Assembly (NCBI RefSeq): GCF_035920345.1
Contig: NZ_CP109149.1
Location: forward strand, 3,224,001-3,288,000
DNA from: Nocardia vinacea
GTDB taxonomy: Bacteria; Actinomycetota; Actinomycetes; Mycobacteriales; Mycobacteriaceae
Length of the DNA: 64,000 nucleotides
Direction: 5' to 3'
Part shown: positions 27,116 through 47,063 of the stretch, piece after piece
How positions within the stretch are numbered: the first letter of the stretch is position 1
How the letters are laid out: every line of letters begins with the position of its first letter
Notes under the pieces: generated by a model
What the model was told of the DNA's origin: nothing
Database searches by the model: none
The model's input: the letters and a program-made list of their open reading frames with translations, nothing else
Position numbers and translations under genes: made by a program

Positions 27116-27226
27116 ATCAGCTCGTTTATACGGCGTCACGACTGGTCGAAATGGCCTGCTGAGCAGTCTCAGAAATAGATGGCACAATCCTGTGCCGTAC
27201 GTAACGGATACGGGAGGAACGTGGTA

Positions 27227-29120: not shown

Positions 29121-29507
29121 CTAGACGCGAAAATCGCCGATGGTCGGATCGCCGAAAAGCCCCTGGGTGGGGGACTTCAGCGGCAGTGGGCTCAGCATGT
29201 CCTTGTGGCCGTTGCGCACACTGCAGTACTTGAACGGTCCGCGGGGATCGAAGAGTTTGGTCATATGCGGATCCGCGTGGTCGAGGAACCAGATGCTCAA
29301 TCCGGTGCTCGGCTCGAGCCGATAGTGCTCCCATGCGCGCCAGAGCGCATCTAGTCGCGCCACCGCCTCGGCATGCTTCCACCACTCCGGGCACCAGACC
29401 GTTTCACTGATATCGGTGACCTGACGCCGGTACACCAGGCCGAGGTAGTTCTCGACGAAGTCCACCACATTGCTGTAGATCATGGGCTGTTGCTGCTGTT
29501 CAGTCAC
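29121..29507 (-). CDS. DUF4913 protein
   Basis: 128 residues matching DUF4913: VDFVENYLGLVYRRQV, then the signature WCPEWWKHAEAVARLDALWR, AWEHYRLEPSTGLSIWFLDH and ADPHMTKLFDPRGPFKYC. The family is actinobacterial and tends to be encoded beside conjugation or T4SS-like genes; its role is unknown. It is the last gene of the cluster, with a GTG start preceded by GAGGTGGAG, and is separated from the coupling ATPase gene by exactly 73 bases. Confidence 0.85.
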   Translation of the reverse strand: MTEQQQQPMIYSNVVDFVENYLGLVYRRQVTDISETVWCPEWWKHAEAVARLDALWRAWEHYRLEPSTGLSIWFLDHADPHMTKLFDPRGPFKYCSVRNGHKDMLSPLPLKSPTQGLFGDPTIGDFRV

Positions 29508-29580
29508 AGCTCCACCTCGATCGCGCTCGGCTCCGCTGCGACTGGCCGTGCTGTGTCTATGGTTCCCTCGCTACGCTCGG
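29508..29580 (-). repeat. 73-bp stop-to-start spacer element, copy A
   Basis: Runs on the minus strand from the coupling-protein stop codon to the DUF4913 start. Both ends resemble those of the 73-bp spacer at 41229-41301: an early CGAGCG-AGCGAG-GAA-CAT part and a final CGGAGCCGAGCGC part followed by CGAGGTGGAG, which includes the ribosome binding site. The middle differs. Confidence 0.6.
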
Positions 29581-31404
29581 TCACAGTGGCCGAACCTCCT
29601 CGATTTGACCGTATTCGGGTGGCGGAGCAGCCTTGGTCAGGTTGGGCGAGCCGAGCAGGTCGGCGATCTCGGTCTTACGCCCCGGAAGATGGTGCGAGAT
29701 CGACTTCTTCACGTCGTCAGCGTAGTCGCCCTCCCACCAGGGCACGGTACGCACGAGCACTGCGGGCTGGCCGGAGGTGAAGACGATCGCGCGGCTCTGT
29801 GGCAGGGTCGCCAGCGCGTTCACGGTGAATGTCTTGGACGAACCGAGTGAACGCGAATAACTCTTGCCGCCTTTGGATTCCGAGACCGAGGACGAGATCG
29901 CGTCGTATTCGCCGATCGCCTCGGAGCGGTCGCGCAGGAAGTTCATATCGTCGACGCCCGGACCGAGCACCTTGATATTGGCCGCCGACCACAGCGCCAG
30001 CATGCCGTCGTCACCCCAGCAGCGCGCACCCTGGGCCCAGGACTGCAGCACCGTCATCACCACGATGCCGCGTGAACCGAAGTGACTGTACTGCTTGGGC
30101 AAATCCTTCCAGCGCACCACATTCGCCGCCTCGTCCAGGACCGCGAGCATCGGGATCGGCAACCGTCCGCCGGGCGAATGCGTGGCCTTGCGCATGGCCA
30201 CATCGACCACGGCCTCGGTGAGCGCACTGACCAGCGGCGCCGCCGAACCGCGGCCCTCGAGCGAGAGGCTGTAGAGCGTGCCGTTGTTCTCGATGAATTC
30301 GAGTTCGTCGAACTGCAAGCGGTTGTCGCCCGGCAGGATCCACGGGTGCACATTGGACAACTGCAGGCAGCGGATCATTTTCTTCGCGGTGCCGAAAATG
30401 CCGCTCTTGGTGCGCGGATCGGCGTTGTACTGCATCGCGAGGCCCGAGGCGGTGTAGTGCTTACTCGAATTGCGCAGCAGCTCGATGGGTTCGGAGTCGT
30501 TGGGATTGGTCACCCAGTCCCAGACCTGGACGATCGGGCGACCACCGAGCGCGGCCGCCAGGAACAGCCCGGCGAGCAGATCCTCGGCCTCCGGGTCGAA
30601 GAACACATCGCCCTTGGCATCGGAGCCGCTGTCGGCATCGGCGAAGTGTCCGGCCAGACGCGCGGCCCGCATCTCCGCACCGTCGTGATATGCGTCCACC
30701 CAGGCAAGCGGATCCCAGAACCAGGTCGGCTCCTCCCCCGCGACGCCCTGCGGGTCGAAGACGAAGGTGCGACTTCCCTTGGCCTCGCGCACATCTCGGG
30801 TCGCATCGACCACATCGCGCTTATTCGAGGTGGACAGGACCGGTCCGATGGCAGTCAGGATGGCCGGGATCACCCGCGAGGTCGATTTGCCCTGACGCGG
30901 ACCCCAGATGTCCAGGTGCAGATCCTCATACGAGCCGTAGAGCATCACCCCATCGGCAACACCGAAGCCGATCGGCACGCCCGGGCTGTCGTTGTAGCCG
31001 AGCCGGACGCCGAGCATTTCGGCCTTCGCCCGAACCCCGGCCTCGGTGAGCGATTTTATGGCGCTGCCGCTCCCCATCACATCGGCCTTGTCGTCCACGG
31101 AGAGCCGACCGACCGATCGACGTGCGGCGAGCCGCTTGCGCACCACCACATAGGCAACGATCGCGCCGATGACGAGCAGCACGATCACCGTTGAGGCGCG
31201 CGGCCAGTGCAGTTTCCCCCTGATCAGATCGGCGACGATCGCGATCGGGTTGATCGGAATGTCCTGCGGGGTGACAGCCATCGCGTTGCCGAGATGCAGG
31301 GCGATCCACAGGGTTCCGAGAGTCGCGAAACCGGCGTAGATCATGTAGAGGGCGATATCGGGTCCGACCACGGCCGGATCCTGCACCTTCTTCTTTTTCG
31401 CCAT
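29581..31404 (-). CDS. Type IV coupling protein (VirD4/TraG-like ATPase)
   Basis: 607 residues. Two N-terminal membrane helices (about 17-38 and 70-88), then a RecA-like domain with Walker A GPRQGKST (168-175) and Walker B LAVLDEAAN (about 420-428); DLHLDIWGPRQGKST and FGSRGIVVMTVLQSWAQG (arginine/glutamine motif region) fit the TraG/VirD4 group. Such ATPases sit at the inner face of the membrane and feed substrates into type IV secretion channels. No relaxase is encoded nearby, so the substrate is open. Upstream gene is separated by 48 bases; ATG at 31404. Confidence 0.88.
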   Translation of the reverse strand: MAKKKKVQDPAVVGPDIALYMIYAGFATLGTLWIALHLGNAMAVTPQDIPINPIAIVADLIRGKLHWPRASTVIVLLVIGAIVAYVVVRKRLAARRSVGRLSVDDKADVMGSGSAIKSLTEAGVRAKAEMLGVRLGYNDSPGVPIGFGVADGVMLYGSYEDLHLDIWGPRQGKSTSRVIPAILTAIGPVLSTSNKRDVVDATRDVREAKGSRTFVFDPQGVAGEEPTWFWDPLAWVDAYHDGAEMRAARLAGHFADADSGSDAKGDVFFDPEAEDLLAGLFLAAALGGRPIVQVWDWVTNPNDSEPIELLRNSSKHYTASGLAMQYNADPRTKSGIFGTAKKMIRCLQLSNVHPWILPGDNRLQFDELEFIENNGTLYSLSLEGRGSAAPLVSALTEAVVDVAMRKATHSPGGRLPIPMLAVLDEAANVVRWKDLPKQYSHFGSRGIVVMTVLQSWAQGARCWGDDGMLALWSAANIKVLGPGVDDMNFLRDRSEAIGEYDAISSSVSESKGGKSYSRSLGSSKTFTVNALATLPQSRAIVFTSGQPAVLVRTVPWWEGDYADDVKKSISHHLPGRKTEIADLLGSPNLTKAAPPPEYGQIEEVRPL

Positions 31405-31452
31405 GTCTGCCTCCTGTTAGGACCTAGCTATGTGGTTGTCGCTGGTGCGGGT

Positions 31453-32166
31453 TCAGCGGAACGCGTCGAGACGCCAACCGTCCGATATGCGCACCACGGT
31501 CGCGATCACCGTTGCGGGCGGCAGGGATTCCTTGCGCCCGTTCGGGTAGACGACCGTTTGCTCGATCCCGATCTTGAACTGTTGGACGTTCGGATCGGCG
31601 CTCGCGGGCGGGCGCTCACCCGACGCGAAGGTGAACGCTTCGATATGTGCCTGCGCCTTGGCCCAGTCCGCCCACTGCAGCGTCGCTTTCGGTGTCTCGA
31701 TCGCGGTCGGCGTGCTGTCCAGCATGCGGATCAGGCTGGGCCCCAACCATTTCCGCGCCCGCGACAACGAAGCACCTTGAGCCTCGGTGACGGGCTGCCA
31801 GGAGTAGATCTCCTTCAGCGCGGCCACCGCGACGCCGTCGGGCGTCACCGGATCGGGTGCGGGCACCCCCTCCAGCAATCGGGTCGTGGACGTGGGCGGC
31901 TGCGGCGCACCGGAACCCGACTCCCGACCGCACCCCGCAACCGATATCACGACGCTCACCACCAGCATCACCACCAGTTTCGCGCGTGCAGTGTTCGATT
32001 TGCGGCGTTCGCGGGCCCCTTCGTGGTCACGCTCCGCTACCGCCTCCGGGACCGTCGCTCGCACCGCCGTGTTATTCAAGGCTAGCCGCCGGGACCGACA
32101 CTTGTGCGGTCCAATCGCCGCACGTACTTCGGCGTGTTCGCCGGCCGCGGTATCGATTGTCGTCAC
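31453..32166 (-). CDS. Membrane-anchored conjugation-type protein, possibly VirB8/TcpC-like
   Basis: 237 residues. About 62 cytoplasmic residues, a hydrophobic helix (AKLVVMLVVSVVISVAGC), then an extracytoplasmic domain (VAVAALKEIYSWQPV, ATLQWADWAKAQAHIEAFTF, VRISDGWRLDAF). VAGC at the helix end looks like a lipobox but lies near residue 79, so lipidation would need an internal start. The GTG overlaps the hydrolase stop by 4 bases (GTGA), which supports the full-length start. An NTF2-like VirB8/TcpC fold is only an inference from size, topology and context. Confidence 0.6.
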   Translation of the reverse strand: MTTIDTAAGEHAEVRAAIGPHKCRSRRLALNNTAVRATVPEAVAERDHEGARERRKSNTARAKLVVMLVVSVVISVAGCGRESGSGAPQPPTSTTRLLEGVPAPDPVTPDGVAVAALKEIYSWQPVTEAQGASLSRARKWLGPSLIRMLDSTPTAIETPKATLQWADWAKAQAHIEAFTFASGERPPASADPNVQQFKIGIEQTVVYPNGRKESLPPATVIATVVRISDGWRLDAFR

Positions 32167-33845
32167 AGCACCCTCCTCCCGCGGCCGTCACCCGGCACCG
32201 CGACCTCGGTCACGCCACTGGAATGCCCGTATGCGGCGGGCACGGATTGGATCATTCGACTGTTGCCGGAATAGATTCCGACCTCGGCGGGGCCGCGCGG
32301 GCCGAATGAGCTGAACACCAGATCACCGGGTTGCAGCTTGCTCAGCGGTACTTCGACGCCCGCCTCCCACTGCTGTTCGGCGGTCCGCGGCAAAGTCACC
32401 GAGCCCGACGATGCCGCGAACACCGCGGCCGAAGTGAGACCGGGACCGTCCATGCCGCCGCCGCTCGGCCCCTGTGGGCCACCGCCACCCCAGACGTACG
32501 GCGTGCCGAGCCATTGCTGCGCCGCCTGGACGACCTGAACGCCGCCCGCCCCCTCCTGCGGAGTGAAGCGGCCATTGGAACCCTGCGCGCGGTATTGCGC
32601 TTCCATCGCAAGGATATTCGCGACGTACGGCTGGGTTTCGGCGTAGTGCGCGGCCACCTGGTTCGGCATGCCGCCGGAGGCGAGTACCGCGCCCTCGCCG
32701 GCGTTGTAGGCGGCCAGGGTCAATGCGACGACATCGCCCTGCACGCGGCCCTGGGACTCCCACGCCGTGATCTTGTGCGCGAGCGCGCACATATAACGGC
32801 CCTGACCGATGATCGCGTCGCCGTCGTCCCATACGCTCGCGACGCCATTGCCGTCGGCATCGATGACATAGGGCTGACCGTCATCGGGATCAATACTGGC
32901 CGCGGTGCCGGGCAGGAACTGGGCCAGACCCTGCGCGCCTGCGGGAGAGGATGCACCGCGCCGGAATCCGGACTCCTGCCTGCCCTGTGCGGCCAGCAGC
33001 GACGGGGTGATCTGCGGACAGATGGAACCCGCACGGCGATACCAGATCTCGAGTTCCTGCGGCACCTTGCCCGCGGCCAGCGCACCACCCGCGGTGCCGA
33101 AGCCGCGGTTACAGCGCGGATCGGACGAGAAGGCCTGCGCGCCACCGACATTCGGGGTCGGTGCGCCGTCGAGCCAGGGCAGCGGGTCGATTTGCCGACC
33201 ACCGGTGAAGCGTCCGCCCGGCACGATCTCGAAATGCAGGTGCGGGCCGCTGGATTCACCCGCCGAACCGACCTGCGCGATGGGCTGACCAGCGACGACG
33301 GTATCGCCGACGTGCACATGCACGCCGCTGTCCCACATATGGCCGTACACCGCGGAATATGCGCGGCCGTTGGTGTCGACGGAATCGACGACGATCCAGT
33401 TGCCGAAACCCGAAGCGGGACCGGCCGCTACAACGCGTCCATCGGACACCGAATAAATGGTGGTGCCGTCGGCCGCAGCGAAGTCGACGCCCTTATGGGT
33501 GCCGCCGCGCGCGCCGAATACGTCCGACACGGTGAAGGTGCCGGTGGCCAGCGGCAGCGTCCGGTGGATCGGGCCGACGCCCGCGGCCAGCGACGGCGCA
33601 CCCGTCGCGGTCGAATGGGCTTGGGTGGCGGTCGGATTGCCGGTCGTACGCATGGGAGTGGGGCTGCCCGCGACGCGGGAATTACCCGGCGCGTATCCGC
33701 CGAGCGGCGCCAGCATAGTCGACGATACGAGCACCGAAGTGCCCTCGCAGGCGTCGTCCACGGCGGGCATCACGATGACGACCACCAGGGTCATCAGCCC
33801 GAGTACGCTCGTCAGCGCCAGGTAGAGGAGGGTCCGCCCGGTCAC
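32163..33845 (-). CDS. Three-domain cell-wall hydrolase: M23 peptidase, SLT transglycosylase, degenerate NlpC/P60
   Basis: 560 residues. Signal-anchor helix (about 5-28), Ser/Thr-rich linker, M23 domain (about 100-215) with zinc ligands in HKGVD (117-121) and HLHFE (202-206), lytic transglycosylase domain (about 270-420) with catalytic Glu291 in QESGF and AYNAG (389-393), and a C-terminal NlpC/P60 domain (436-560). In the last domain the catalytic DCSGL is DGPGL (Cys467 replaced by Gly) and the residue before VGIY is Glu521 instead of His, so it should be inactive. Conjugation systems need such enzymes to cross peptidoglycan. GTG start at 33845. Confidence 0.88.
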   Translation of the reverse strand: MTGRTLLYLALTSVLGLMTLVVVIVMPAVDDACEGTSVLVSSTMLAPLGGYAPGNSRVAGSPTPMRTTGNPTATQAHSTATGAPSLAAGVGPIHRTLPLATGTFTVSDVFGARGGTHKGVDFAAADGTTIYSVSDGRVVAAGPASGFGNWIVVDSVDTNGRAYSAVYGHMWDSGVHVHVGDTVVAGQPIAQVGSAGESSGPHLHFEIVPGGRFTGGRQIDPLPWLDGAPTPNVGGAQAFSSDPRCNRGFGTAGGALAAGKVPQELEIWYRRAGSICPQITPSLLAAQGRQESGFRRGASSPAGAQGLAQFLPGTAASIDPDDGQPYVIDADGNGVASVWDDGDAIIGQGRYMCALAHKITAWESQGRVQGDVVALTLAAYNAGEGAVLASGGMPNQVAAHYAETQPYVANILAMEAQYRAQGSNGRFTPQEGAGGVQVVQAAQQWLGTPYVWGGGGPQGPSGGGMDGPGLTSAAVFAASSGSVTLPRTAEQQWEAGVEVPLSKLQPGDLVFSSFGPRGPAEVGIYSGNSRMIQSVPAAYGHSSGVTEVAVPGDGRGRRVL

Positions 33846-33891
33846 CGCATCCCCGGCAGTGCCGAACGACTGCGGACCGAACCGAAAAAGT

Positions 33892-34200
33892 TCACGTTCG
33901 CCGCCGAGATTCGTTGAGGGTGTCGGCCAGGGTGCGGTTCATCTCCGCGGCGGCGGCCAATTGTTGTTGTAGCAGTGCGACTTTGCGGCGCAGCGCCGTC
34001 GCGTCCAGGCGCTCGAGACTCGGTCCCTCGGCGGCGCGCACCCAGTTGCGCACCGAGTTGGTATGCACGCCGATCTGCTCGGCGACCACCCGGCAGGCCT
34101 CCGATTCGCTGCGTAGTTTGCCGGTAAGTGCAATGACCTGCTCGACCGCTGCCTTGCGCACCTCCGGCGACACTCTCCGATAGGACCGGTGCGGCATCAT
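33892..34200 (-). CDS. Orphan transposase OrfA-like helix-turn-helix protein
   Basis: 102 residues. The first 60 resemble IS3-type OrfA (HTH_Tnp_1): VSPEVRKAAVEQVIALTG, SEACRVVAEQIGVHTNSVRN, WVRAAEG; the rest is a leucine-zipper-like helix (ALRRKVALLQQQLAAAAEMN). No OrfB transposase or terminal repeats follow, so this is not an intact insertion sequence. Its ATG has GGAGG 9 bases upstream and it sits between the VirB4-like ATPase and the wall hydrolase in the same orientation, suggesting a co-opted DNA-binding protein or the relic of an insertion. Confidence 0.75.
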   Translation of the reverse strand: MMPHRSYRRVSPEVRKAAVEQVIALTGKLRSESEACRVVAEQIGVHTNSVRNWVRAAEGPSLERLDATALRRKVALLQQQLAAAAEMNRTLADTLNESRRRT

Positions 34201-34246
34201 GCGCCCCACCTCCCACAGCCATCCATCGGTCTCGAAAGCTGTGTTT

Positions 34247-34272
34247 TTTCGAGCGACCTGCGAGCAGTCGCA
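34247..34272 (+). repeat. Copy 3 of the small palindromic repeat
   Basis: TTTCGAGCGACCTGCGAGCA then GTCGCA, differing from the copy at 28049 by two bases. It lies in the 85-base gap between the VirB4-like ATPase stop and the OrfA-like start, so within the cluster it would be transcribed as part of the message. Confidence 0.65.
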
Positions 34273-34285
34273 AGCGCGAGCCCCC

Positions 34286-36589
34286 TCATGCGGCACTCCC
34301 ACTGGGGGAATCGCCACCACGCGAAGTCGACTCGGTGAACTCGGAGAAGCGCTGGTTGGTTTCGTGGATCCCACTCTCCTTCTCGGACAAGGTGAATTCC
34401 ATATGGAACGGGATGCCGGGGCGGCGATCCTCACCGATCTTCAGTAGGAATTTGCCGGTACCCGGCGGCGACGGGCGCAGCTGACCAGGCTTGAGCGCCT
34501 CGCCCGTCAGCGCTTGCGGTGCGGACCATCCGGTCACCATCTCCTCCTCGGCGGATGTGAACGGAACCACACTGTCCAGGCGCTTGATCTCCTCGCCGGG
34601 CAGCGCGCCGAATATCTTGGCGCGGGCGCGTTCGAGGAAGCCCAGCGCCTTCGCGATGGCGGCTTCCGATCCCAGTGCTTGCAGGTCCTTGATGGTGTGG
34701 CTGATCATGATCAGCGCGGTGGCGATGGTGCGCTGCAGACGGGTCAGCTCATCGACCCGGTCGACCATGAAGTCGCCGAGGCCGAGCACCTGCCACAGCT
34801 CGTCCATCACTACCTGGAAATAGCGCTGCGGGCCGAGTTTCGCGTCGGCGAGCACATGCGCGGCCTCCACGGAGGCGAAACCGTCGGCCCAGCAGGCCAG
34901 CATCACCGCGGCCTTGAGCTTCTTATCGCCGGTGGGGATATGGGATACGTCGATGCAGACCGCGACCGCGCTGGTATCGATCGGAACGGTGGTCTGCCCG
35001 TTGAAGATCGCGCCGAACGGGCCCTGGGTCAGGGCGCGCAGCGAGCGGCGCAGGCCCTTGATGGCCACCTGGTATTCGTTCGGATCATCGGCGCCGGCGT
35101 CTAGCTGCAATTCGTCACCGCCGGCGACGATCACCTCGAGCAGGTTCTCCATGATGGGCGGTTGGTCGGGCGTATAACCGCTGCCCGGTCGGTAGAGGAT
35201 GCGCAGCGCGGTGGCGATCAGCGTCTCCTCGTAGTCGCGCACCCGTGCGCCGCGTACGAGCTCGACCAGACCGGCGATGAGCGTGACCTGACGGGCGCGC
35301 AGATCCTGCAGCACCTGAAGTTGCAGTGCCGGAAGCTCGTCCAGCATCGGCACGACCGAACCGAGCACACCGGCGGCGAGCGGGTTGAGCTTGCCGTGGC
35401 CGTAGCCGAGGTCGATCACCTGGCCGCCGACCAGTTCGACCAACTTGCGGTAGTCCGGTTTCACGTCGGCCAGGATCAGCGGGGTGATGCCCTGCGCGAT
35501 CCCGCCGAGCACGATCCGGCGCACCAGCGAGGACTTACCGAAACCGTTGAGCCCCAGCACGAAAAGGCTGGGCGCGGTGATGAAGCTGCCGCGCAGGAAC
35601 CAGTTCATCGGGTCGAAGCAGACCGGGGCGCCGGTATGCAGATGCGAACCGAGCGGGGTGCCGATCAACGGCGCACCCGCGCCGACCGACCACGGCCACA
35701 GACCCGCCACCTGGGCGGTGGTGGCCCGATATTCGACCGGGCGGCCCACGACATTCATCCGGCCGCCGCCTGGACCCATATAGCCGCGATCGGTGAGTTG
35801 GGCTGTGCTGCGGTCGAATCCGTCTTCGAAGACCTGTTCGGCGCGCGCCGCGTAATTGCGGCGGCGGATATCGTCGGTGCGGATCCGGAAGGTCGCGAAG
35901 GCCGCCCGCAGGCCGGTGCCCTCACGACTGATCTGCTCGAGTTTGGCCCTGGTCGCATCGTCGAGCAGCGCCGGACCCGACTGTTTGCGCTTGTCCGACC
36001 TCGCTTTTGCGCGACGGGCGGCCTTGTCCATCTGCGGGGTGCCCATGGCGCGGTCGGCGGTGTAGTCGACCTTGGCCGCGCGCTGTGCCTCGCGACTCGT
36101 CCGCGAGCCATTGCGTTCCGGTCGTGCCACCCGTTCCCCCCGTGCCGGTCGTTGCGGTGCGCCATCGCGCGGGCGAGCGGTCCGGGCGCCGTCGGGACGT
36201 CCACGCTCGGTCGAAGTCCGTTCCCCGCGGCCGTTTTCGGGCCTGATGCGCCCGCGGTCCGGATGCGGCCGATCGGCACGGCCACCGTCCGCGGCTGCGG
36301 CGCCGGGGCGCGCCCGCCGCTCGGCTGCATCGCGCGACGGCCGCCGCTCCCGATCGGACGTTTCGCCGATGCCGGTCCGCTCGCCGCCGCTCACCCCCGC
36401 CGGGCCCCGCGTGGACCGCCGATCCCGGTCGGGCATCTCCTCGATGCCCGAGCGCTCGACCCGGCCCCCGGTGGGCCGCTGAGCGTGTTCGTCCGCCGGC
36501 CGCTCCCTTGCCGCGTCCTCGGGACGCCGCTTGCGGCGCACCGGCACCTCGTCCCGTTCGCGCACGGGTGGCTCGTACTCACGTGCCAT
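34286..36589 (-). CDS. VirB4/TraC-like secretion ATPase (ATPase half)
   Basis: 767 residues. The first 200 or so are disordered and very rich in Arg, Asp, Glu and Pro; a linker (RIRTDDIRRRNYAARAEQVF) precedes the ATPase core with Walker A GLNGFGKSSL (346-355), ILADVKPDYRKLVELVGG, Walker B FQVVMDELWQ (591-600) and the C-terminal FGALPGEEIKRLD. VirB4 proteins power assembly and transport in type IV systems. The usual VirB4 N-terminal domain is absent here and is supplied by the next gene (SCO6880-type, 36597-38093), 7 bases away. ATG at 36589. Confidence 0.87.
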   Translation of the reverse strand: MAREYEPPVRERDEVPVRRKRRPEDAARERPADEHAQRPTGGRVERSGIEEMPDRDRRSTRGPAGVSGGERTGIGETSDRERRPSRDAAERRARPGAAAADGGRADRPHPDRGRIRPENGRGERTSTERGRPDGARTARPRDGAPQRPARGERVARPERNGSRTSREAQRAAKVDYTADRAMGTPQMDKAARRAKARSDKRKQSGPALLDDATRAKLEQISREGTGLRAAFATFRIRTDDIRRRNYAARAEQVFEDGFDRSTAQLTDRGYMGPGGGRMNVVGRPVEYRATTAQVAGLWPWSVGAGAPLIGTPLGSHLHTGAPVCFDPMNWFLRGSFITAPSLFVLGLNGFGKSSLVRRIVLGGIAQGITPLILADVKPDYRKLVELVGGQVIDLGYGHGKLNPLAAGVLGSVVPMLDELPALQLQVLQDLRARQVTLIAGLVELVRGARVRDYEETLIATALRILYRPGSGYTPDQPPIMENLLEVIVAGGDELQLDAGADDPNEYQVAIKGLRRSLRALTQGPFGAIFNGQTTVPIDTSAVAVCIDVSHIPTGDKKLKAAVMLACWADGFASVEAAHVLADAKLGPQRYFQVVMDELWQVLGLGDFMVDRVDELTRLQRTIATALIMISHTIKDLQALGSEAAIAKALGFLERARAKIFGALPGEEIKRLDSVVPFTSAEEEMVTGWSAPQALTGEALKPGQLRPSPPGTGKFLLKIGEDRRPGIPFHMEFTLSEKESGIHETNQRFSEFTESTSRGGDSPSGSAA

Positions 36590-36596
36590 GTAATGC

Positions 36597-39574: not shown

Positions 39575-40419
39575 TGTGTCCACCCCTCGATGCTTCGCAG
39601 GGAATCGATCTGGACTTGCTGCTGTCCGCTCACCGCAGTGAGCTTCCAATCGCCGTCGCGCCATATCACTGCCAGGCGCATGCCGACCCATGTTGGTTGA
39701 CCATCAGCTGTTTCTCGGGCCTTTCTCGCAAACTGGATGATCGCGGAATCTTCGGTATAGCTTTCGATTCGGAACGCATCCGAAGCGAACAGCAAGGGGC
39801 TCAACTTATCCGGCAGTCGATCCGAGACCTTGCCCTCGGCGACGAGTCGGTCGTAGTCGGCCAGGTATTGCGGGGTGACCTCGACCAGCCGCAGCAGAAG
39901 ATCACGATCACGCGGGTTGGCGTTGGTGCGCCAGTAGATCTGTTCGGCAGCCAGGGCCGCGCCCTGTGGGGTGTGGGCGAATCCGACAGCGGCCTTACCG
40001 TCGACGCGCGCTGGGCCGTCGGAGGTGGAGAACCGCACTACGGGTCCGCCGAATACCCGCTGCCACACGCCTTGTCCGCTCGCGGGCTGCGGTGCCGCGG
40101 TCAGCCAGGTCGATGCGCCCGGCTGCTGCTGCACGGCCGGATTCTGTTCCAGCGCAGTGCCGATGCCGTTGTCGGGCATATCCACGCGGCGGCCGAACAT
40201 ATCGACTTCTGGGTTCCCGAACCCGGACACTGCGGTGCCGGGCACATTCTCCGAACTCGTGCCGGTCTTCGATACCTGGTCACCCCCGGCGGCATTGTCT
40301 CGCATCGCGACCACGGTCACGGCGACCGCGACGACCACGGCAAGCAATGCGCCGACGCCCAGCATCGCGAGCGGCGAACGTTTGCCTGCCGGACCGGATC
40401 CGGGCCCCATGGTCACCAT
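39568..40419 (-). CDS. Envelope protein of a tandem paralog family (copy 3)
   Basis: 283 residues: short cytoplasmic tail, one helix (MLGVGALLAVVVAVAVTVVA), and a 230-residue exported domain. It shares with the next gene upstream the signatures NPEVDMFGRRVD, VRFSTSDGPARVDG, AVGFAHTPQGAALAAEQI, a PRDRDLLLRLVEV block, FASDAF and the terminal GWTQW. The NTF2-like feel of the end (VIWRDGDWKLTAVSG) suggests a VirB8/TcpC-type role in the channel, an inference only. The ATG overlaps the upstream stop by 7 bases (ATGGTGA); GTG at 40428 is an alternative start. Confidence 0.7.
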   Translation of the reverse strand: MVTMGPGSGPAGKRSPLAMLGVGALLAVVVAVAVTVVAMRDNAAGGDQVSKTGTSSENVPGTAVSGFGNPEVDMFGRRVDMPDNGIGTALEQNPAVQQQPGASTWLTAAPQPASGQGVWQRVFGGPVVRFSTSDGPARVDGKAAVGFAHTPQGAALAAEQIYWRTNANPRDRDLLLRLVEVTPQYLADYDRLVAEGKVSDRLPDKLSPLLFASDAFRIESYTEDSAIIQFARKARETADGQPTWVGMRLAVIWRDGDWKLTAVSGQQQVQIDSLRSIEGWTQW

Positions 40420-41228
40420 TTGGTCCACCCGTTCAACGACTCGACGTATTCGGTCTGCGGGTTATTGGAGGTCGCCGGCTTCAGCCGCCAGTCTCCCGCA
40501 TCCCAGATCATCACCAATCGCAGGGCCGCCCACAGCTGCTTGCCATCGACCACCTGGCCACGGGTTGCCAACTGGATGATCGCCAAATCGTCCGCATAGT
40601 TCTCGACCTTGAACGCGTCCGAGGCGACGAAATACTTTGTCACCTTCTCCGGCTGCTGTTCCGGGAGTTTGTCCTGGGACAGGGCCTTGTCGTAGGCGGC
40701 GATCTGCTGGGCCGAGACGCGGACCTGGCGGACATAGAGGTCGCGGTCGGCGGGGCGGGCGTTGAGGCGGTAGGTGATCTGGGCCGCGGCGAGCACCGCA
40801 CCCTGCGGGGTGTGCGAATAGCCCACGGCCAGACCGTCTTCGATGTGGGTCGGTCCGTCGGAGGTGGAGAACGGGACCGAAGCGCCGTAGACGCGCTGCC
40901 AACCGTGCGGTGCGGTGGTGCCCTCGGGTGCCGCGGTCAGCCAGTCTGCGTCCGACGGCCTGCGCTGCCGAGTCGGATCCTGCAGAAGTGGTTGTCCGGC
41001 AGGGTTGTTCGGAATATCGACGCGCCTGCCGAGGATATCCACCTCGGGGGTCGCGAAGCCCTCACCGCCGGAATTGGCTGCGGCGGCGGCCTTGTCGCCA
41101 CCAGAACCCGAATCGTCCCGGCTCACGTACACGAATACGCCGACGACCACGATGAGCACCAGCACAGCAGCGGACGCGATGACACCGAAGGAGACGCGAT
41201 CGCGGGCGTACGACTCCTTCTCGCTCAT
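40413..41228 (-). CDS. Envelope protein of a tandem paralog family (copy 2)
   Basis: 271 residues with one membrane helix (about 14-35) and an exported domain paralogous to the downstream gene: TPEVDILGRRVD, VPFSTSDGPTHIEDG, AVGYSHTPQGAVLAAAQI, PADRDLYVRQVRV, VASDAFKVENY and the terminal GWTKW. The start ATG is preceded by GAGGTGGAG and by a 73-bp spacer element. Probably part of the secretion channel's periplasm-equivalent layer; no enzymatic motif is seen. Confidence 0.7.
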   Translation of the reverse strand: MSEKESYARDRVSFGVIASAAVLVLIVVVGVFVYVSRDDSGSGGDKAAAAANSGGEGFATPEVDILGRRVDIPNNPAGQPLLQDPTRQRRPSDADWLTAAPEGTTAPHGWQRVYGASVPFSTSDGPTHIEDGLAVGYSHTPQGAVLAAAQITYRLNARPADRDLYVRQVRVSAQQIAAYDKALSQDKLPEQQPEKVTKYFVASDAFKVENYADDLAIIQLATRGQVVDGKQLWAALRLVMIWDAGDWRLKPATSNNPQTEYVESLNGWTKW

Positions 41229-41301
41229 GACTCCACCTCGCCGGCGCTCGGCTCCGTCATGAGCGAAGCACGCTGCGACATGATTCGCTCGCTGCGCTCG
41301 C
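41229..41301 (-). repeat. 73-bp stop-to-start spacer element, copy B
   Basis: Runs on the minus strand from the stop of the lipoprotein-like gene to the ATG of the next gene, the same length as copy A at 29508-29580 and similar at both ends. Its middle contains an ATGAGCGA/TCGCTCAT inverted pair, so it may fold. Confidence 0.6.
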
Positions 41302-41982
41302 TCATGCCGGTGCCTCCAATTTCACTATTTCCGTGGGCAATTCATCGACCGCCTCGATGGGGCGCGCGGTCGAGTCGGGATCCGGCAGTCTTAATCTCCA
41401 GTCGTTGCCGAACCATTCGACAGTGGTGTGGTTCACCGCCTTCGAGTTGTCCGAATATTCGGTATAGACGTCGACGGCGGAGGCCGCATCGGTGTAGCCG
41501 GTGATCTTGTATCCGAGCACTCTCGGCGCATATTCGGGCGTGGCCGGACCGGTGAGCGAGAGCTGCACCCGGCTGACCGCCCACTCGTCTCTGGCCTTGT
41601 TCGGCACCACCTCTTGGCGCACGATATCGGCCCATTGACTGTCGGCGGCCACCGACAATCGCACCGTGTGCACGATCGCCGCCAAGGCGGCACCGATCGG
41701 CGAATGCTCGAAACCCGTTGCAGCGCCGTCGGATACCTGCTTCGGGCCCTGGTCGGCACTCGGGAGCGCCACGCCCTGGAACGGCTGCCACCGCACATGG
41801 GTCGGCGCGGCCGTCAGGTTCGGGCCGGAATCACCGTCACCGCCGTTGCAGCCGACCGCCGCCAATAGCAGGGCAGCACCGAACGCACCGGCGGCGGGCT
41901 TGCGAATACCGCGCCGCCACACGCCGGGTTGCTCCCGCACAACTGTGGAAATCATCCCAGGGCCGTCCCCATCCCCGTTCAC
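41302..41982 (-). CDS. Lipoprotein-like envelope protein of the same family (copy 1)
   Basis: 226 residues. Hydrophobic segment ending in a lipobox (GAALLLAAVGC), then an exported domain with VRWQPFQGVALPSADQGP, VSDGAATGFEHSPIGAALAA and VEWFGNDWRLRLPDP. The GFEHSPIGAALAA block aligns with AVGYSHTPQGA of the next two genes, marking it as a more diverged member of the tandem family. The GTG at 41982 overlaps the upstream stop (GTGA); ATG at 41955 is also possible. Lipidation would anchor it on the outer face of the membrane. Confidence 0.65.
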   Translation of the reverse strand: MNGDGDGPGMISTVVREQPGVWRRGIRKPAAGAFGAALLLAAVGCNGGDGDSGPNLTAAPTHVRWQPFQGVALPSADQGPKQVSDGAATGFEHSPIGAALAAIVHTVRLSVAADSQWADIVRQEVVPNKARDEWAVSRVQLSLTGPATPEYAPRVLGYKITGYTDAASAVDVYTEYSDNSKAVNHTTVEWFGNDWRLRLPDPDSTARPIEAVDELPTEIVKLEAPA

Positions 41983-42263
41983 GTCGGCAGGAACGCCAAC
42001 GCGATCCCCGAGGCCGTGCTCGCCACAGCCGCCCCGAGCAGACTCATCAATACACCGTGCGAGGCGTCGTTCATCGCCAGGTCGCTCCGGAACGCGATCC
42101 ACAGGCGGCCCGCGGAGACGATCATCCACGCCAGGCACACCAGCAGTACGAACCAGAGCAGCCAGTTCAGCAGCTGCATCAGCGGTTGCAGCACTTCGGC
42201 GGGCATCTGCTTGTAAGCAAGCAGTTCCGCCGCCGACATTCGCACGGTAGCCATCGCCGACAT
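41979..42263 (-). CDS. Small two-helix membrane protein of the T4SS-like cluster
   Basis: 94 residues: MSAMATVRMSAAELLAYKQM, then two hydrophobic segments (LMQLLNWLLWFVLLVCLAWM and GVLMSLLGAAVASTASGIAL). Size and topology resemble the gene just upstream (98 residues), and both recall VirB2-type pilins or VirB3. The ATG overlaps the upstream stop by one base (TGATG). The longer open frame upstream is antisense-like Arg/His-rich sequence and was rejected. Confidence 0.7.
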   Translation of the reverse strand: MSAMATVRMSAAELLAYKQMPAEVLQPLMQLLNWLLWFVLLVCLAWMIVSAGRLWIAFRSDLAMNDASHGVLMSLLGAAVASTASGIALAFLPT

Positions 42264-42559
42264 CAAGTCCCGATGACGGCGTTCATGATGGTGCCCGCGC
42301 TCGTCGCGACGACGCCGCCGATCATGGCTCCGGCCACCATCTTCGGCGATTCGAGCCCACCACCGGTCCACTTCTCCCACGCGAATTTGCCACCCGCGTA
42401 GGTGATTCCGCAGATACCGGAGAGCAACACGAACCAGGTGAGATAGCGGACCAGCTGCAGGATCTTCTCCGAGCCGGGAGGCGCTTCCGGTGTCGGGTTA
42501 CCGACCTGAGCCAGGACAGTGCCGTACGTGTCCTGCACGGCAAGGAGAATCATGCTCAT
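42263..42559 (-). CDS. VirB2-like small membrane protein
   Basis: 98 residues: short N-terminus (MSMILLAVQDTYGTVLAQ), a loop, then helices LTWFVLLSGICGITYAGGKF and MVAGAMIGGVVATSAGTIMN. Two helices around a short charged loop are the layout of VirB2-type pilins and their relatives. ATG at 42559 with AAAGG 8 bases upstream; 25 bases after the DUF6668-like gene. Assignment rests on size, topology and location. Confidence 0.7.
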   Translation of the reverse strand: MSMILLAVQDTYGTVLAQVGNPTPEAPPGSEKILQLVRYLTWFVLLSGICGITYAGGKFAWEKWTGGGLESPKMVAGAMIGGVVATSAGTIMNAVIGT

Positions 42560-42584
42560 CGGCTGCCTTTCTTGGTAGTGGCGG

Positions 42585-43226
42585 TCAACGGTGGTCCTCG
42601 TCGAAAGGTGCACTGCTGTCGAGGTTTTCGCGCACGACCGCAACGATATCGGCCCCGAGCTCCCGGATCTCGAGCGGAACTTCCTCTAGCGGGTCGATCC
42701 TCTTTTTCTTCTGCGGTATCTCGTCGCCCGGGGTCCAGATCGGCAGGCTCTCCGGTTCGACGAGGGTCCATTCCTCGTACCACGGGACCTGCCAGACCTG
42801 ACCGGCCAGGGAGCCGACCACATCGCGGTAGCGGCGGATTTCGGCGGGCATGCGCCCGGGACGAGCCGCGACCGTGATCAGTCCGAGGACCTCACAGGAG
42901 CCGGCGAAACCCGAATGATGTTGGCGCAGAAGATCATGCGCGCGAGTGAGTCCGGCAATGGTCTCGCGAGCCACCAGGACGACGAAGGGCGATTCGCGGT
43001 CGAAGACGCCGGGCCAGCGCCGGCCCGAATCCGCCGCAGGCGCAAGCACACGCGCGAGGCTACTGGCTCCGGCACCGCCGTGCACACCTAGCAGCCACCA
43101 CAGCGGCGCCCGACCGACGCCGGGTACGGGACGGTCCCAAATGGGCGCGCGACGGGACTCCGGTGGGGCGACCACACCGGCCTGGGCGGCTTCGGACTGG
43201 CGACGAAGTTTCATGGCGGCCGTCAT
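42585..43226 (-). CDS. P-loop-like protein (DUF6668-type) lacking the Walker A lysine
   Basis: 213 residues. WWLLGVHGGAGASSLARVLA (about 43-62) looks like the glycine-rich loop of ParA/MinD-type NTPases but has Ala-Ser-Ser where Gly-Lys-Ser/Thr is expected. Downstream are FVVLVARETIAGLTRAHDLL and VLGLITVAARPGRMP, resembling the strand that follows in that fold, and a Lys/Asp/Glu-rich C-terminus. I believe it is the family named DUF6668, common in actinobacterial T4SS-like loci. ATG overlaps the stop of the ParA-like gene by 4 bases. Confidence 0.72.
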   Translation of the reverse strand: MTAAMKLRRQSEAAQAGVVAPPESRRAPIWDRPVPGVGRAPLWWLLGVHGGAGASSLARVLAPAADSGRRWPGVFDRESPFVVLVARETIAGLTRAHDLLRQHHSGFAGSCEVLGLITVAARPGRMPAEIRRYRDVVGSLAGQVWQVPWYEEWTLVEPESLPIWTPGDEIPQKKKRIDPLEEVPLEIRELGADIVAVVRENLDSSAPFDEDHR

Positions 43227-44098
43227 GATGCCACTCCGGCGAGCAGCCGCCCATAAGCCCGGCGCGTCTCCGAAGCCAGTGATGCGTGGCGAACGAGTTC
43301 ACCGCGCGCCAGATGCGGATCGTAGGGAATCTCCCTGATGTCACGAACCCAGCCGGAAAGGTGCTCGCGCAAATGATCGGCAACATGCGAGTCCGCACCG
43401 GGGAGCTGGTGTGAGACAACGATTGTGGTATCGCCGACGATGCCGGCGCCTTGCCCCTCGGCCGAATCGCCGAACTGGTCGTCGAGCCATTCCAGGGTCA
43501 CCCGCAGTCGGTTCGCGGCATCGGCGCGCGCCGGAATGGCAAGTACCAGAGCGACATCCGCGTCATCCAGCAATGGTCTCAGCTGCCGTCCGGCAATCGG
43601 GTTGCCGCCGTCGTAGACGGCGGTGTACCCGGCGTCATAGATCGCGCGCGCAACTGTGAGATATGTGGCACGCCGACGCAGTGGCGCGGCGTCGCGCCAG
43701 AGCAGTCCGATGCCCGAACTCGCCTGCGACAGACACTCCTTCAACGGCGCCGGCTCATCGTTGCCGCGACCGTACAACCACGATTGCAGGCTGATCGGAT
43801 GCAGGTGCTCATCGGCCCCGCGTAGCGCCAGATCGCTGCCCGCCGCAGTGGCGTCCACCGCCACCGTCGAGGTGCCCGTCGTGCCGAGTTCACCGGCCAA
43901 GCCCAAGGCCGTGGTCGTGGTTCCCGCACCACCACAGCCACCGACCACCAGAATCGAACGCTGCGCCGGTTCCGCGGATTCGCTGTCTCCGCCCTTACGC
44001 CGCAGACGCACCACCGGAGCCTTCGAAGGCGCGTGCCGGTCCGACGGATCACCCTCATCGGGCGCCTCGTCGAGCCAGCGGCTCCAGTCGTCTCCCAT
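43223..44098 (-). CDS. ParA/MinD-like protein with atypical Walker A
   Basis: 291 residues. After a charged N-terminal 45 residues the fold begins with ILVVGGCGGAGTTTTALGLA (49-68). The deviant Walker A of this family (KGGxGKT) is here CGGAGTT: both the signature lysine and the P-loop lysine are gone. Other features are kept: VAVDATAAGSDLALRG after strand 2, YTAVYDGGNP, and VALVLAIPARADAANRLRV. Degenerate Walker A also occurs in TadZ-type proteins of pilus systems, which act as localisation factors. ATG at 44098, preceded by AGGGAG. Confidence 0.8.
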   Translation of the reverse strand: MGDDWSRWLDEAPDEGDPSDRHAPSKAPVVRLRRKGGDSESAEPAQRSILVVGGCGGAGTTTTALGLAGELGTTGTSTVAVDATAAGSDLALRGADEHLHPISLQSWLYGRGNDEPAPLKECLSQASSGIGLLWRDAAPLRRRATYLTVARAIYDAGYTAVYDGGNPIAGRQLRPLLDDADVALVLAIPARADAANRLRVTLEWLDDQFGDSAEGQGAGIVGDTTIVVSHQLPGADSHVADHLREHLSGWVRDIREIPYDPHLARGELVRHASLASETRRAYGRLLAGVAS

Positions 44099-44117
44099 CG
44101 CTATCAGCTCTCCCTAT

Positions 44118-45053
44118 TCATCCGGCCGCGACGCTCGTGATGAGCGTGTGGCCGTCGACCACCACCGTGGTGACGGTCTGCTTGTTGTACGTGGCGGGCG
44201 CGCCGCCGGGTCGGTACTCGGTGACCTCGACCGAATACCGGTCGTCGGTGATCGTCTGGATCCGCACGCAGTGCGTGGTGCCCAGCGGAATGGTGTCGAT
44301 GCCGTGCTGGATCACCGTGGCCGAGGAGATATTCGAATCCGGGGCGACCACCGCCCGGACCCGCTCGCCGGAGCGTTCCACGTAGTAGGCGTATTGGAAC
44401 GCCAGGATCACGTCCGGTCCGGAGTCGGTGCCGCCGGGTTCGGCACTGCGCACGATGCGGTCGCCGCGTTCGGTCGGACAGTCGGCGATGCCACGGGATT
44501 GGACACTGCCCGCGGTGAATTGCATCGAGGGCACGACCGGCGCGGCGGCGCGATCACCGGACGAGCGCAGGAGCAACACCGCGCCCGCGGCGGCTGCGGC
44601 CAACAGCAGTACGGCCACTACGAGCACCGCGATCACCCGGGCCCGGCGCGCGGCCGGATGATCGCGCGCCTCCTGGCGCAGTGCGCGCGTCACGCGAGTC
44701 GACCGTTCACGCGGAACCTGGTCGTGGTCGTCGTCCTCCGGCCACGGGAACTGTACAAGTTCGCCGTCGCGCGGACCGATGTAGTCGTCGTCGGGACCGG
44801 GGGCGCGTCCGGCCACCCAATCCGACCACCCACCGGTGAATTCGCTGCGACCGGAGGCCAGATCGGCGGGCACCTCGTTGCGTGCGCGCACCTCGTCGGG
44901 ATCCTCCTCGCGAATGTAGTGCGGAAACCGGGGCGCTCCGTCCTCGTCACCGGGATCCAGCAATCCCGGCTCGTCGGGGTTCGGGGCCGCTACCCCCGTC
45001 TCCGGCTCCAGCGCGCCGTACCAGCGCGACAGCTGTTTGTACGACTTCAACAT
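44118..45053 (-). CDS. Single-pass membrane protein of the T4SS-like cluster
   Basis: 311 residues. An acidic cytoplasmic half (about 1-138, with DDDYIGPRDGELVQFPWPED), one membrane helix (VIAVLVVAVLLLAAAAAGAV, about 140-162) and an exported domain (SMQFTAGSVQSRGIADCPTE, FQYAYYVERSGERVRAVVAP, GTTHCVRIQTITDDRYSVEV) with two cysteines that may pair. No family recognised. It is the first gene of the tightly packed part of the cluster, 51 bases after the cutinase-like gene. The ribosome binding site is poor (GGGGGA directly before the ATG). Confidence 0.7.
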   Translation of the reverse strand: MLKSYKQLSRWYGALEPETGVAAPNPDEPGLLDPGDEDGAPRFPHYIREEDPDEVRARNEVPADLASGRSEFTGGWSDWVAGRAPGPDDDYIGPRDGELVQFPWPEDDDHDQVPRERSTRVTRALRQEARDHPAARRARVIAVLVVAVLLLAAAAAGAVLLLRSSGDRAAAPVVPSMQFTAGSVQSRGIADCPTERGDRIVRSAEPGGTDSGPDVILAFQYAYYVERSGERVRAVVAPDSNISSATVIQHGIDTIPLGTTHCVRIQTITDDRYSVEVTEYRPGGAPATYNKQTVTTVVVDGHTLITSVAAG

Positions 45054-45104
45054 TCCCCCATTCCCGCAGAGCGAGGCACATGCATAATCGGACCCTCTCT
45101 GCGA

Positions 45105-46733
45105 TCAGTTCGTGGAGAACGGGTAGGTGTTGTTTACGGTGCCGGGTACTACGGTGGGCGGAGTCGACGTCGCGCCGCCGGATGAGGTGCCATCGGCTCC
45201 TGTCCCGAACGGAAATTGTCCCGTACCGGACGAATTCGGCGGGGTCGACGCGCCGGAACTTTCTCCGAAGAATCCGGTGGTCGATTTCGTGCTGCCACCG
45301 ATAGGCGCAGCTCCGCTGCCATATTTATCGGCCAGATCGTGTGCCGCCGCGGCGAACCAGTCCGCAACGAATCGGGTGGGTGTATCACCGGTCGCGGTGA
45401 CCGCCGCCGTGCTGTAGACGCCGTGGCGCTGCACGGTATCCCAATAGCGCACCCAGGTAGTCACATTGAGCAGTTCGCTGTTATCGGTGATGTTCTGCAC
45501 CACCGCGTCGAAGGCCTGAGTTACCAATCGTGCACCGGTCGTCGGCGGCACCAACTGCGGAATCGCGCCCAGCAATTTCGTGCCGAATAGCAGGATTCCG
45601 GAGACCGGATCGGCCAAACCCGCGGTGACCAGTTGGCTGATATTAGCCGAGCTGATGACCGACTTGACCACCGTCGCGACCGCGTTGAGTCCGATCATGC
45701 CGACCTTCAGCAACGCCTGCAGTGCCGCGGGAATATTCAACGGCGTGCGCGGATCGGCGGCATCGGCCAAGCGCTGCGAAATCGACTTCTGTGGTGAAAT
45801 CGACAAATTCGCGAGTGAGTTGCCCTGAACATCTTCATTGACAACTTTGGTGGCGGTCTTGATAGACGTGTACGCCAGTGCCTGGGAAATCGAAACCAAT
45901 GACGCGATCGGGTCGCCGCCACTCAACTTGGACTGGCCCGCAATAGATGCCACTGCCTTCAGAATCGGCGCGCCTTCCGGTGCATCGCACGCGAGATCGC
46001 CTGCAGCACAGAAACTCGCGACACGCCCGGTGAGCGCGGCGAAATTGGGGGCTTTATCGCGTTCCGGCCCGATTCCGCCGCCGCTCGCCGGCTCCTGTGG
46101 CAGTGCCGCGATGGAGCCGACCCCGTCCCCCGAGGTGCCCGGCGCGGGGTCCGGCGTCGCCTTGCCCGGCGAGCCGGGAAACAGCGGCGCACCGGGATTG
46201 CGGGTCGGATCGGCGAACAAGGCGACCGCAGCGACCTTCTCGGGCGGGATCACGCCATGGCCCTGGCCGACCTCCTGGGCGAACATCGAGGCCACATGCG
46301 CGCCTTGCGAATAGCCCACGATCGCGAAGCGGGTCTCGGTGCAGCGGGCCGCGACATCCCGGGCCATCGAGCGCAGCCGGAGCAGTCCGCCGATCACCGA
46401 CTCCGCATACGACACCGTGCCACCGGCGGTCGCGCCGCCGAAACCGGATTCGTATGGGACATAGGCGCGGTCGACCAGGCTGGGATCGGCCTTGGCCAAC
46501 ATCGGCATGAAGACCGTGGAGAGCATGCCGGTATCGGTGGTCGGCGCGGCATCTGGTGACGATTCGCCTGTGCCCTGAATTCCCAAGGCGTACAATGCCG
46601 GACACGTACCGATGGCGATGTTGGTCGTCGGGCCTGCGGAATCGGACGGTTCCGCCACGGCGGTCCCCGCGGTCGCCACAGCAACGGCGAATGCGATCAG
46701 CATTCCCGAGATCCGTGCCGTGTAGTTCATCAT
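45105..46733 (-). CDS. Secreted cutinase-family serine hydrolase
   Basis: 542 residues. Signal peptide (residues 1 to about 27, cleaved after TAVA), then an alpha/beta hydrolase domain of the cutinase type: CPALYALGIQGTGESSPD, YVPYESGFGGATAGGTVSYA, and the nucleophile elbow FAIVGYSQGAH (Ser142). The region after about residue 290 is an extra helical part, and the last 70 residues are Gly/Ser/Thr/Pro-rich and end NNTYPFSTN. Mycolic-acid bacteria have many cutinase-like esterases acting on envelope or host lipids. It may head the secretion cluster or be an independent gene. ATG at 46733 (46730 possible; a TTG lies at 46745). Confidence 0.85.
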   Translation of the reverse strand: MMNYTARISGMLIAFAVAVATAGTAVAEPSDSAGPTTNIAIGTCPALYALGIQGTGESSPDAAPTTDTGMLSTVFMPMLAKADPSLVDRAYVPYESGFGGATAGGTVSYAESVIGGLLRLRSMARDVAARCTETRFAIVGYSQGAHVASMFAQEVGQGHGVIPPEKVAAVALFADPTRNPGAPLFPGSPGKATPDPAPGTSGDGVGSIAALPQEPASGGGIGPERDKAPNFAALTGRVASFCAAGDLACDAPEGAPILKAVASIAGQSKLSGGDPIASLVSISQALAYTSIKTATKVVNEDVQGNSLANLSISPQKSISQRLADAADPRTPLNIPAALQALLKVGMIGLNAVATVVKSVISSANISQLVTAGLADPVSGILLFGTKLLGAIPQLVPPTTGARLVTQAFDAVVQNITDNSELLNVTTWVRYWDTVQRHGVYSTAAVTATGDTPTRFVADWFAAAAHDLADKYGSGAAPIGGSTKSTTGFFGESSGASTPPNSSGTGQFPFGTGADGTSSGGATSTPPTVVPGTVNNTYPFSTN

Positions 46734-47063
46734 AGCGATCCGCAATCAATTCGTGTTGCCGCAGCTAACCTAAACGCCATGAAACGCAATAGACCGTAAC
46801 AGATTCCGACTCTTGCTGCGGCTTCGACGAAAAGTTTGCGCGAACCACCGAGTGGCGCATGGCAGTTCACGGCGTGCCACCCTGGATTTTCCAACAAGTT
46901 TCCGACGGCGAAAATCACCCTGCAACCGGTCGGCGACCCTACAACGACTCGAATCATCATCCTGGACTTCGCATTCCAGCGAACGCCGAACCACACGGCA
47001 GACAACCGCAACTTTCCATGCGGGTACGCCGGCTATGTCCAGCGAGGTTGACGGGGTGCGGTT
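46734..47063. other. Intergenic region without recognised feature
   Basis: 330 bases between the relA stop and the cutinase-like start, both genes on the minus strand. No gene, clear terminator or promoter pair was found; short open frames on the plus strand are His/Arg/Pro-rich and not convincing. Base composition is somewhat lower in GC than the flanking genes. Confidence 0.6.

Follow-up and report, generated by a model that had tools for sequence, protein, structure and literature searches.

The closed chromosome of Nocardia vinacea (10,358,337 bases) carries a conjugation-type type IV secretion system (T4SS) which, on balance, appears to be a domesticated 'MOBless' machine: a conjugative T4SS whose relaxase and replication functions were lost or never brought in, and which is now part of the chromosomal core, with protein as its probable cargo. 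The locus lies on the minus strand at positions 29121–46733 of the window (the whole stretch analysed here: 64,000 nt, NZ_CP109149.1, 3,224,001 to 3,288,000; coordinates below are those of the window unless stated otherwise), between relA at one end and, at the other, ppi (a cyclophilin gene) with hisS. It encodes a VirD4 coupling ATPase, a VirB4-type ATPase and its partner SCO6880. A preliminary description, made from the sequence alone, had proposed a domesticated conjugation machine or an export system; its near-universal presence in Nocardia, its constant flanks, purifying selection, genomes free of relaxase matches and relatives on plasmids all support this proposal.

Distribution and insertion site

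The locus is found in 149 of the 150 Nocardia genomes examined (N. vinacea included). A SCO6880 match with at least 90% identity is present in 130 of these genomes (127 full or nearly full, three partial). Among the other 20, 19 have VirD4 at 73–98% identity and 19 have at least one operon gene beside relA before the contig ends; the apparent absence from these 20 genomes thus mostly reflects assembly breaks before SCO6880, with G099 remaining negative. Draft assemblies often break near the virB6–SCO6880 junction, perhaps because the 3' end of virB6 is Gly/Pro-rich. All 80 named SCO6880 matches at about 90% identity or more (the best 80 of 104 confirmed) are from Nocardia.

The preliminary description had called for a survey of the locus and its flanks in related genomes, and the fetched regions have the same flanks: relA adjoins the locus in nine of 10 fetched relatives, and ppi and hisS do so in nine of 10, the contig of the tenth ending first each time (relA is inverted in G020 and G033, two of the nine relatives with relA). 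In 24 genomes of other families, the distance from relA to a cyclophilin gene is at most 1.5 kb in 19 and 1.7 to 10 kb in four more, with no T4SS match between in these four (they include G048, whose RelA identity, 79%, is the highest among the other families); in the one remaining genome the contig ends. No SCO6880 relative in this group of 24 exceeds 488 bits, as compared with 556–570 bits for whole locus copies in congeners. Since relA and the cyclophilin gene lie close together without a T4SS in other families, the locus is best read as an insertion between relA and ppi that predates the divergence of the sampled Nocardia. The fixed site and near-universal presence differ from the patchy distribution and variable sites of conjugative elements.

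Relaxases and mobility genes

Pfam scans of the window gave no match to relaxase, integrase or replication genes, and none to relaxase, integrase or transposase families among its called genes outside the locus; within the locus there is one transposase-type helix-turn-helix (HTH) DNA-binding protein (HTH_Tnp_1), which the preliminary description did not list. No direct repeats flanking the locus are longer than those in shuffled sequence, no att repeat was found, and a tRNA search of the window gave no match. The locus therefore combines the VirD4 and VirB4 of a conjugative element with none of its cognate relaxase, integrase and att repeats, or replication genes in the window, and has the arrangement of a MOBless T4SS (chromosomal T4SS genes, no relaxase nearby). 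The earlier statement that no integrase, att repeat or replication gene was found at the locus stands, and neither a relaxase nor an integrase framed by att repeats turned up close by to speak against domestication. The statement that there is no relaxase holds for the window; elsewhere, the genome carries four MOBF matches, of which the closest is some 330 kb away.

We take PF08751, PF03432 and PF03389 to represent MOBF, MOBP and MOBQ, respectively; neither PF03432 nor PF03389 has a match in the N. vinacea genome. Six one-contig genomes that keep the locus (G076, G077, G124, G147, G148 and G152; six out of 18 one-contig genomes searched, each with the locus as its sole match to the window's SCO6880) have no match to any of the three families. 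Of ten one-contig genomes with a single SCO6880 match, six have neither MOBF nor PF03432 and four (G087, G095, G149 and G155) have MOBF. Seven drafts (G006, G010, G018, G021, G028, G029 and G030) likewise keep the locus with no MOBF, MOBP or MOBQ match (the G010 draft has a second SCO6880). The locus was fetched from five of the six one-contig genomes free of relaxase matches and shows no internal stop besides those in a rejected frame at 33842 (see below); G124 has no match for the cutinase or the 41302 gene, and two starts in G077 are outside the aligned stretch. Because MOBF, MOBP and MOBQ are not found genome-wide in several species, relaxase-led DNA is unlikely to be the selected cargo.

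The N. vinacea chromosome has two further SCO6880-type T4SS copies, at chromosome positions 3638712–3640130 (G000:C1; L042) and 9970386–9971804 (L046), and a MOBF match lies about 36 kb from the former.

Selection and descent

The ratio of nonsynonymous to synonymous substitution rates (dN/dS) was computed between the N. vinacea genes and up to six relatives, dropping comparisons with a stop or an uncovered gene (two out of six for the 38090 gene, four out of six for relA). It is 0.018–0.027 for SCO6880 and 0.022–0.024 for RelA (two comparisons, partial gene), so SCO6880 is under purifying selection like RelA; it is 0.10–0.18 for VirB4 and 0.11–0.26 for VirD4. Near-genus-wide fixation, together with selection on SCO6880, the best-kept part, like that on RelA, implies that the machine has a long-standing cellular role in Nocardia.

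When eight T4SS proteins from 21 genomes are placed in a tree, it disagrees with the flanking genes at one well-supported point, and the distances are correlated at r = 0.80 (the flanking genes were found in 19, 13 and 20 of the 21 genomes, and rpoB conflicts with them in five split pairs). T4SS and rpoB distances are also correlated (r = 0.70; best of 999 permutations, 0.40). Descent is broadly vertical with recombination; strictly vertical descent is not proven.

Components of the locus

The features of the locus and its flanks are as follows (E-values or other evidence in parentheses).

25755–27032, minus strand: hisS, flank (PF13393, 2.3e-39)
27221–28042, plus strand: ppi, cyclophilin peptidyl-prolyl isomerase, flank (PF00160, 9.6e-27)
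28499–29053, plus strand: 184-a.a. companion gene, convergent with the T4SS operon (in 99 of 110 Nocardia regions)
29121–29507, minus strand: DUF4913 protein (PF16259, 5.1e-41)
29581–31404, minus strand: VirD4 coupling ATPase (TraG-D_C, 1.9e-29; T4SS-DNA_transf, 2.1e-21)
31453–32166, minus strand: lipoprotein, start uncertain (lipobox in translation; no Pfam match)
32163–33845, minus strand: wall hydrolase, M23 + SLT + NlpC/P60 without catalytic Cys (Pfam domains)
33892–c. 34200, minus strand: HTH_Tnp_1-type DNA-binding protein, start uncertain (PF01527, 2.3e-5)
34286–36589, minus strand: VirB4-type ATPase, C-terminal half of VirB4 (sub-threshold profiles, Walker motifs)
36597–38093, minus strand: SCO6880 (two hydrophobic helices, putatively VirB3-like, and a VirB4 N-terminal-domain fold)
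38090–39574, minus strand: putative VirB6-like polytopic protein, probable start (TraG_N, 2.2e-4, below cut-off; position as in plasmids)
39568–40428, minus strand: tandem relative of the 40413 protein (cross-matches between the two)
40413–41228, minus strand: single-transmembrane envelope protein, putatively VirB8-like (no Pfam match)
41302–41940, minus strand: lipoprotein, putatively of the VirB8-like group, start uncertain (lipobox; tblastn relation to 39568/40413)
41979–42239, minus strand: 86-a.a. pilin-sized protein (median 84% identity in 83 regions)
42263–42559, minus strand: 98-a.a. pilin-sized protein (median 92% identity in 83 regions; dN/dS 0–0.044)
42585–43226, minus strand: DUF6668 protein (PF20373, 3.5e-6)
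43223–44098, minus strand: ParA/CpaE-like P-loop protein (CbiA, 0.0017, and CpaE_hom_Actino, 8e-6, both below cut-off; dN/dS 0.10–0.14)
44118–45053, minus strand: probable single-transmembrane envelope protein, fast evolving (no Pfam match; plasmid relatives exist)
45105–46733, minus strand: secreted cutinase-family protein, Culp6-like (Cutinase, 1.4e-12; Culp6, 7.9e-22, below cut-off)
46790–46807, minus strand: promoter-like element GGAATCTGTTACnGT before the operon, putative role (conservation)
47064–49685, minus strand: relA, flank (Pfam HD_4, RelA_SpoT, TGS, ACT)

The T4SS of the preliminary description is confirmed. The VirD4 profiles succeeded, and the Walker A motif (GPRQGKST) is at residues 168–175 of the translation as described; it is kept in 102 of 102 loci, and the Walker B pattern missed four of the 102, which still have DE. 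Conservation of the VirD4 substrate domain does not discriminate between protein and DNA cargo. The VirB4-type ATPase is recognized by its position, by Walker A and Walker B patterns in 85 of 85 loci and by profiles that are all below cut-off (Pfam P-loop_TraG, 1.1e-4; VirB4-type NCBIfam models, down to 4.4e-14). SCO6880 scores 565 bits against its family profile (cut-off 60) and adjoins the VirB4 ATPase and the VirB6-like gene, the arrangement of SCO6880-type actinobacterial T4SSs; its likeness to VirB3 is putative. The sub-threshold TraG_N match and the position suggest that the 38090–39574 protein is VirB6-like, and both pilin-sized proteins are present. The structure model of the 40413 protein (predicted local distance difference test score 47) is too poor for use, so its VirB8 label is provisional.

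Of 100 loci, 95 have the HTH_Tnp_1 gene, free of stops, and it is missing from none of the 83 that possess both neighbouring genes. Identity of the 44118–45053 protein ranges from 30 to 97% across Nocardia and one plasmid. The GYSQG motif of the cutinase, whose ATG start is the probable one, is found in 56 of 56 copies. Motif counts include the window itself and some genomes twice (distinct sequences: 88 of 91 for the hydrolase, 97 of 102 for VirD4, 79 of 85 for VirB4 and 52 of 56 for the cutinase), and some operon genes are uncovered where contigs end. Between relA and the T4SS the cutinase is missing, or is a short C-terminal remnant, in G002, G166, G118 and G123 (L239, L236, L237 and L238, respectively); reading frames at the site were inspected for the first three.

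Internal stops were first flagged for the 29121 gene (one region), 38090 (13), 39568 (four), 41302 (four) and relA (three). Those in the 38090, 41302 and relA frames are all upstream of the accepted starts; those in 39568 fall at residues 265–267 of 286, at loci where the tandem relative may be the best match; and the single stop in 29121, which comes from a metagenome bin (L110), falls at residue 12. The frame 33842–34273 was rejected as a gene, with dN/dS of about 2 in three comparisons and stops in three others; the true gene at this place is the HTH_Tnp_1 one at 33892–c. 34200.

Wall hydrolase and promoter-like element

The preliminary description was right that the wall hydrolase has three domains (M23, SLT and NlpC/P60), but the third is without its catalytic residues. 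The M23 ligands and the SLT Glu are intact in all 91 hydrolases (88 distinct). The NlpC/P60 Cys is absent in all 91 locus copies (Gly in 85, Ala in six) and the His is changed in 90 (on the 88 distinct hydrolases the residue pattern was unable to read the NlpC residue in two). Relatives elsewhere that possess NlpC/P60 keep the Cys in six out of six cases, and the His in the four aligned, with the motif in the other two; these six are the hydrolases of pCP1, pR09C01 (very similar to pCP1), the Rhodococcus opacus plasmid (L303), a second T4SS in the genome G075, and the two other N. vinacea copies (B and C), counted whether mobile or not. The domain is wholly absent from four of seven plasmid hydrolases (L301, L302, L304 and L305, excluded from the six), so NlpC activity is optional for transfer.

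The element GGAATCTGTTACnGT, which resembles an extended −10 promoter, has a single window match at two or fewer mismatches, where 0.04 are expected. Of 80 Nocardia loci, 46 carry it exactly and 19 with one mismatch (65 of 80 together). It has no counterpart at two or fewer mismatches in 12 further T4SS stretches, taken from nine plasmids, the G075 element, and copies B and C. We read the dead NlpC domain and the conserved upstream element as marks of domestication that set the locus apart.

Neighbouring genes and other systems

The 184-a.a. companion protein (28499–29053) is charged, has no Pfam match and adjoins the T4SS across Nocardia. Its gene has no match in the outgroup stretch L286. 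It was rejected as a plasmid relic, as plasmids gave just two partial Clavibacter matches, neither convincing. Pfam scans of the 20 open reading frames from the DUF4913 gene to 49663–50820 found no type VII (ESX) set (EccB/EccC/EccD/MycP), only a sub-threshold EccE match (0.0082), and PADLOC matched none of the 10 proteins given (part of the operon) to anti-phage defence. Elsewhere in the window, a small EspC-like protein (T7SS_ESX_EspC; 17035–17364) adjoins a 535-a.a. protein without an assigned family, and an ASdes small RNA (55756–55823; 68 bits) lies antisense to a gene for a fatty-acid desaturase.

Cargo and alternative explanations

The main cargo is most likely protein rather than relaxase-led DNA. 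MOBless T4SSs are suggested to be mostly protein exporters in PMC3158045; this, together with the lack of matches to the three relaxase families searched, favours protein export, with transfer of chromosomal DNA as its main rival. We consider it unlikely, though worth keeping in mind, that the locus passes chromosomal DNA from one Nocardia cell to another with no classical relaxase involved (similar to mycobacterial distributive conjugal transfer) or releases DNA. The whole conjugative channel and its coupling protein are kept, as is the HTH protein wherever both its neighbours are present, and unconventional chromosomal transfer exists in mycobacteria (PMC12857230); but no MOBF-, MOBP- or MOBQ-type relaxase accompanies the locus, and the HTH gene occurs in plasmid operons too and so need not signify DNA cargo. 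Alternatively, the locus could act in trans as a public channel for relaxases, or for mobilizable elements, that reside elsewhere in the cell, since the N. vinacea genome has four MOBF matches but three SCO6880 copies, and 13 out of 20 genomes assembled into one or two contigs have MOBF. This is quite improbable given that the locus persists in six one-contig genomes and seven drafts with no match to the three families. A decaying or merely recent integrative and conjugative element is hardly credible: the locus does derive from a conjugative system, but its fixed site, its presence in 149 genomes, low dN/dS and intact ATPase motifs contradict it.

Several observations weigh against a domesticated protein exporter. 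The machine is known here from its genes, and substrate, expression and export are proposals; the retained HTH protein would equally suit DNA work; and the relaxase search was confined to MOBF, MOBP and MOBQ (MOBV, MOBH, MOBC and MOBT were not searched). One genome (G099, 1340 contigs) shows no locus gene, relA there being followed by an unrelated gene, the cutinase is missing in some genomes, and 15 of the 80 loci have GGAATCTGTTACnGT only at three or more mismatches. As the NlpC domain is missing in four of the seven plasmid hydrolases, loss of its Cys alone is no argument against conjugation. Finally, the T4SS and rpoB trees share nine of 18 splits and 19 well-supported split pairs conflict, so inheritance is not strictly clonal.

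In a domesticated machine of this kind, from which we infer active transport, the site between relA and ppi would have received a conjugative T4SS like those of Rhodococcus and Nocardia plasmids ahead of the diversification of the sampled Nocardia; relaxase and replication functions would then have been lost, if they were ever brought in. VirD4, together with a VirB4 divided between SCO6880 and a distinct ATPase, would use ATP to power a channel built of pilin-sized proteins and of the VirB6-like and VirB8-like ones. The M23/SLT hydrolase would open the peptidoglycan, and VirD4, as gatekeeper, would hand a resident substrate to the channel. The cutinase would aid passage through the mycolate layer in species that retain it; as some genomes are without it, it would be helpful rather than essential.

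Conjugative T4SSs are normally patchy parasites. This one is fixed practically throughout Nocardia, and it offers a clean test case for a mycolate-envelope T4SS freed from plasmid transfer. It is possible, though we hold this only tentatively, that it is a vertically kept, genus-defining T4SS that moves chromosomal DNA or toxic proteins between neighbours across the mycolate envelope without a classical relaxase; if true, this would be a contact-dependent transfer system of the core genome, the first to be described in this lineage. Among the literature matches listed, we found no account of this Nocardia T4SS.

Comparison with known systems

SCO6880 relatives are found in 457 plasmid records, 451 of them below 60% identity. 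Nine plasmids were opened: six are typed with a relaxase (MOBP for pCP1, pR09C01 and the R. opacus plasmid; MOBF for the N. terpenica and R. ruber plasmids and pREC1) and three as non-mobilizable (Nocardia sp. plasmids NBC_01377, NBC_01327 and NBC_01503). Rhodococcus plasmids pCP1 (NZ_CP088907) and pR09C01 (NZ_AP018734), which are very similar here and so are counted as one example, share genes with the locus in an unchanged order that runs from the cutinase gene through to that for DUF4913 (identity to pCP1: SCO6880 63.7%, VirB4 59%, VirD4 48%). Unlike the locus, they carry a few additional small genes and, next to virD4, one that is staphylococcal-nuclease-like; they are typed MOBP, and their NlpC Cys is intact. 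In pCP1 the T4SS is followed, after about 3.6 kb that span the record start, by a relaxase and mobC.

The closest relative examined is the second T4SS of G075 (L294–L297), with 77% identity for SCO6880, 78% for VirB4, 65% for the hydrolase and 62% for the cutinase (aligned parts). It differs from the locus in having a MOBF match about 23 kb away on the same stretch, intact NlpC Cys and His, and a VirD4 that is only 33% identical. Its best-kept channel genes are 60–78% identical to those of the locus and others 42–51%, and coupling protein and channel may have been swapped separately.

The self-transmissible plasmid pRErm46 of Rhodococcus equi, compared by its description in PMC6794481, shares with the locus a VirB4-like ATPase, a TraG-like protein, a murein endopeptidase and a secreted cutinase, and differs in its MOBP relaxase. 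In that source, a cutinase is proposed to aid a conjugation machine across the mycolate layer, and one is cited as reported to promote pFiD188 conjugation. The MOBless T4SSs of Guglielmini 2011 (PMC3158045), where Nocardia is nowhere named in the main text, resemble the locus in being VirB4-bearing and chromosomal with no nearby relaxase; what distinguishes the locus from them is that one system is fixed genus-wide at one site.

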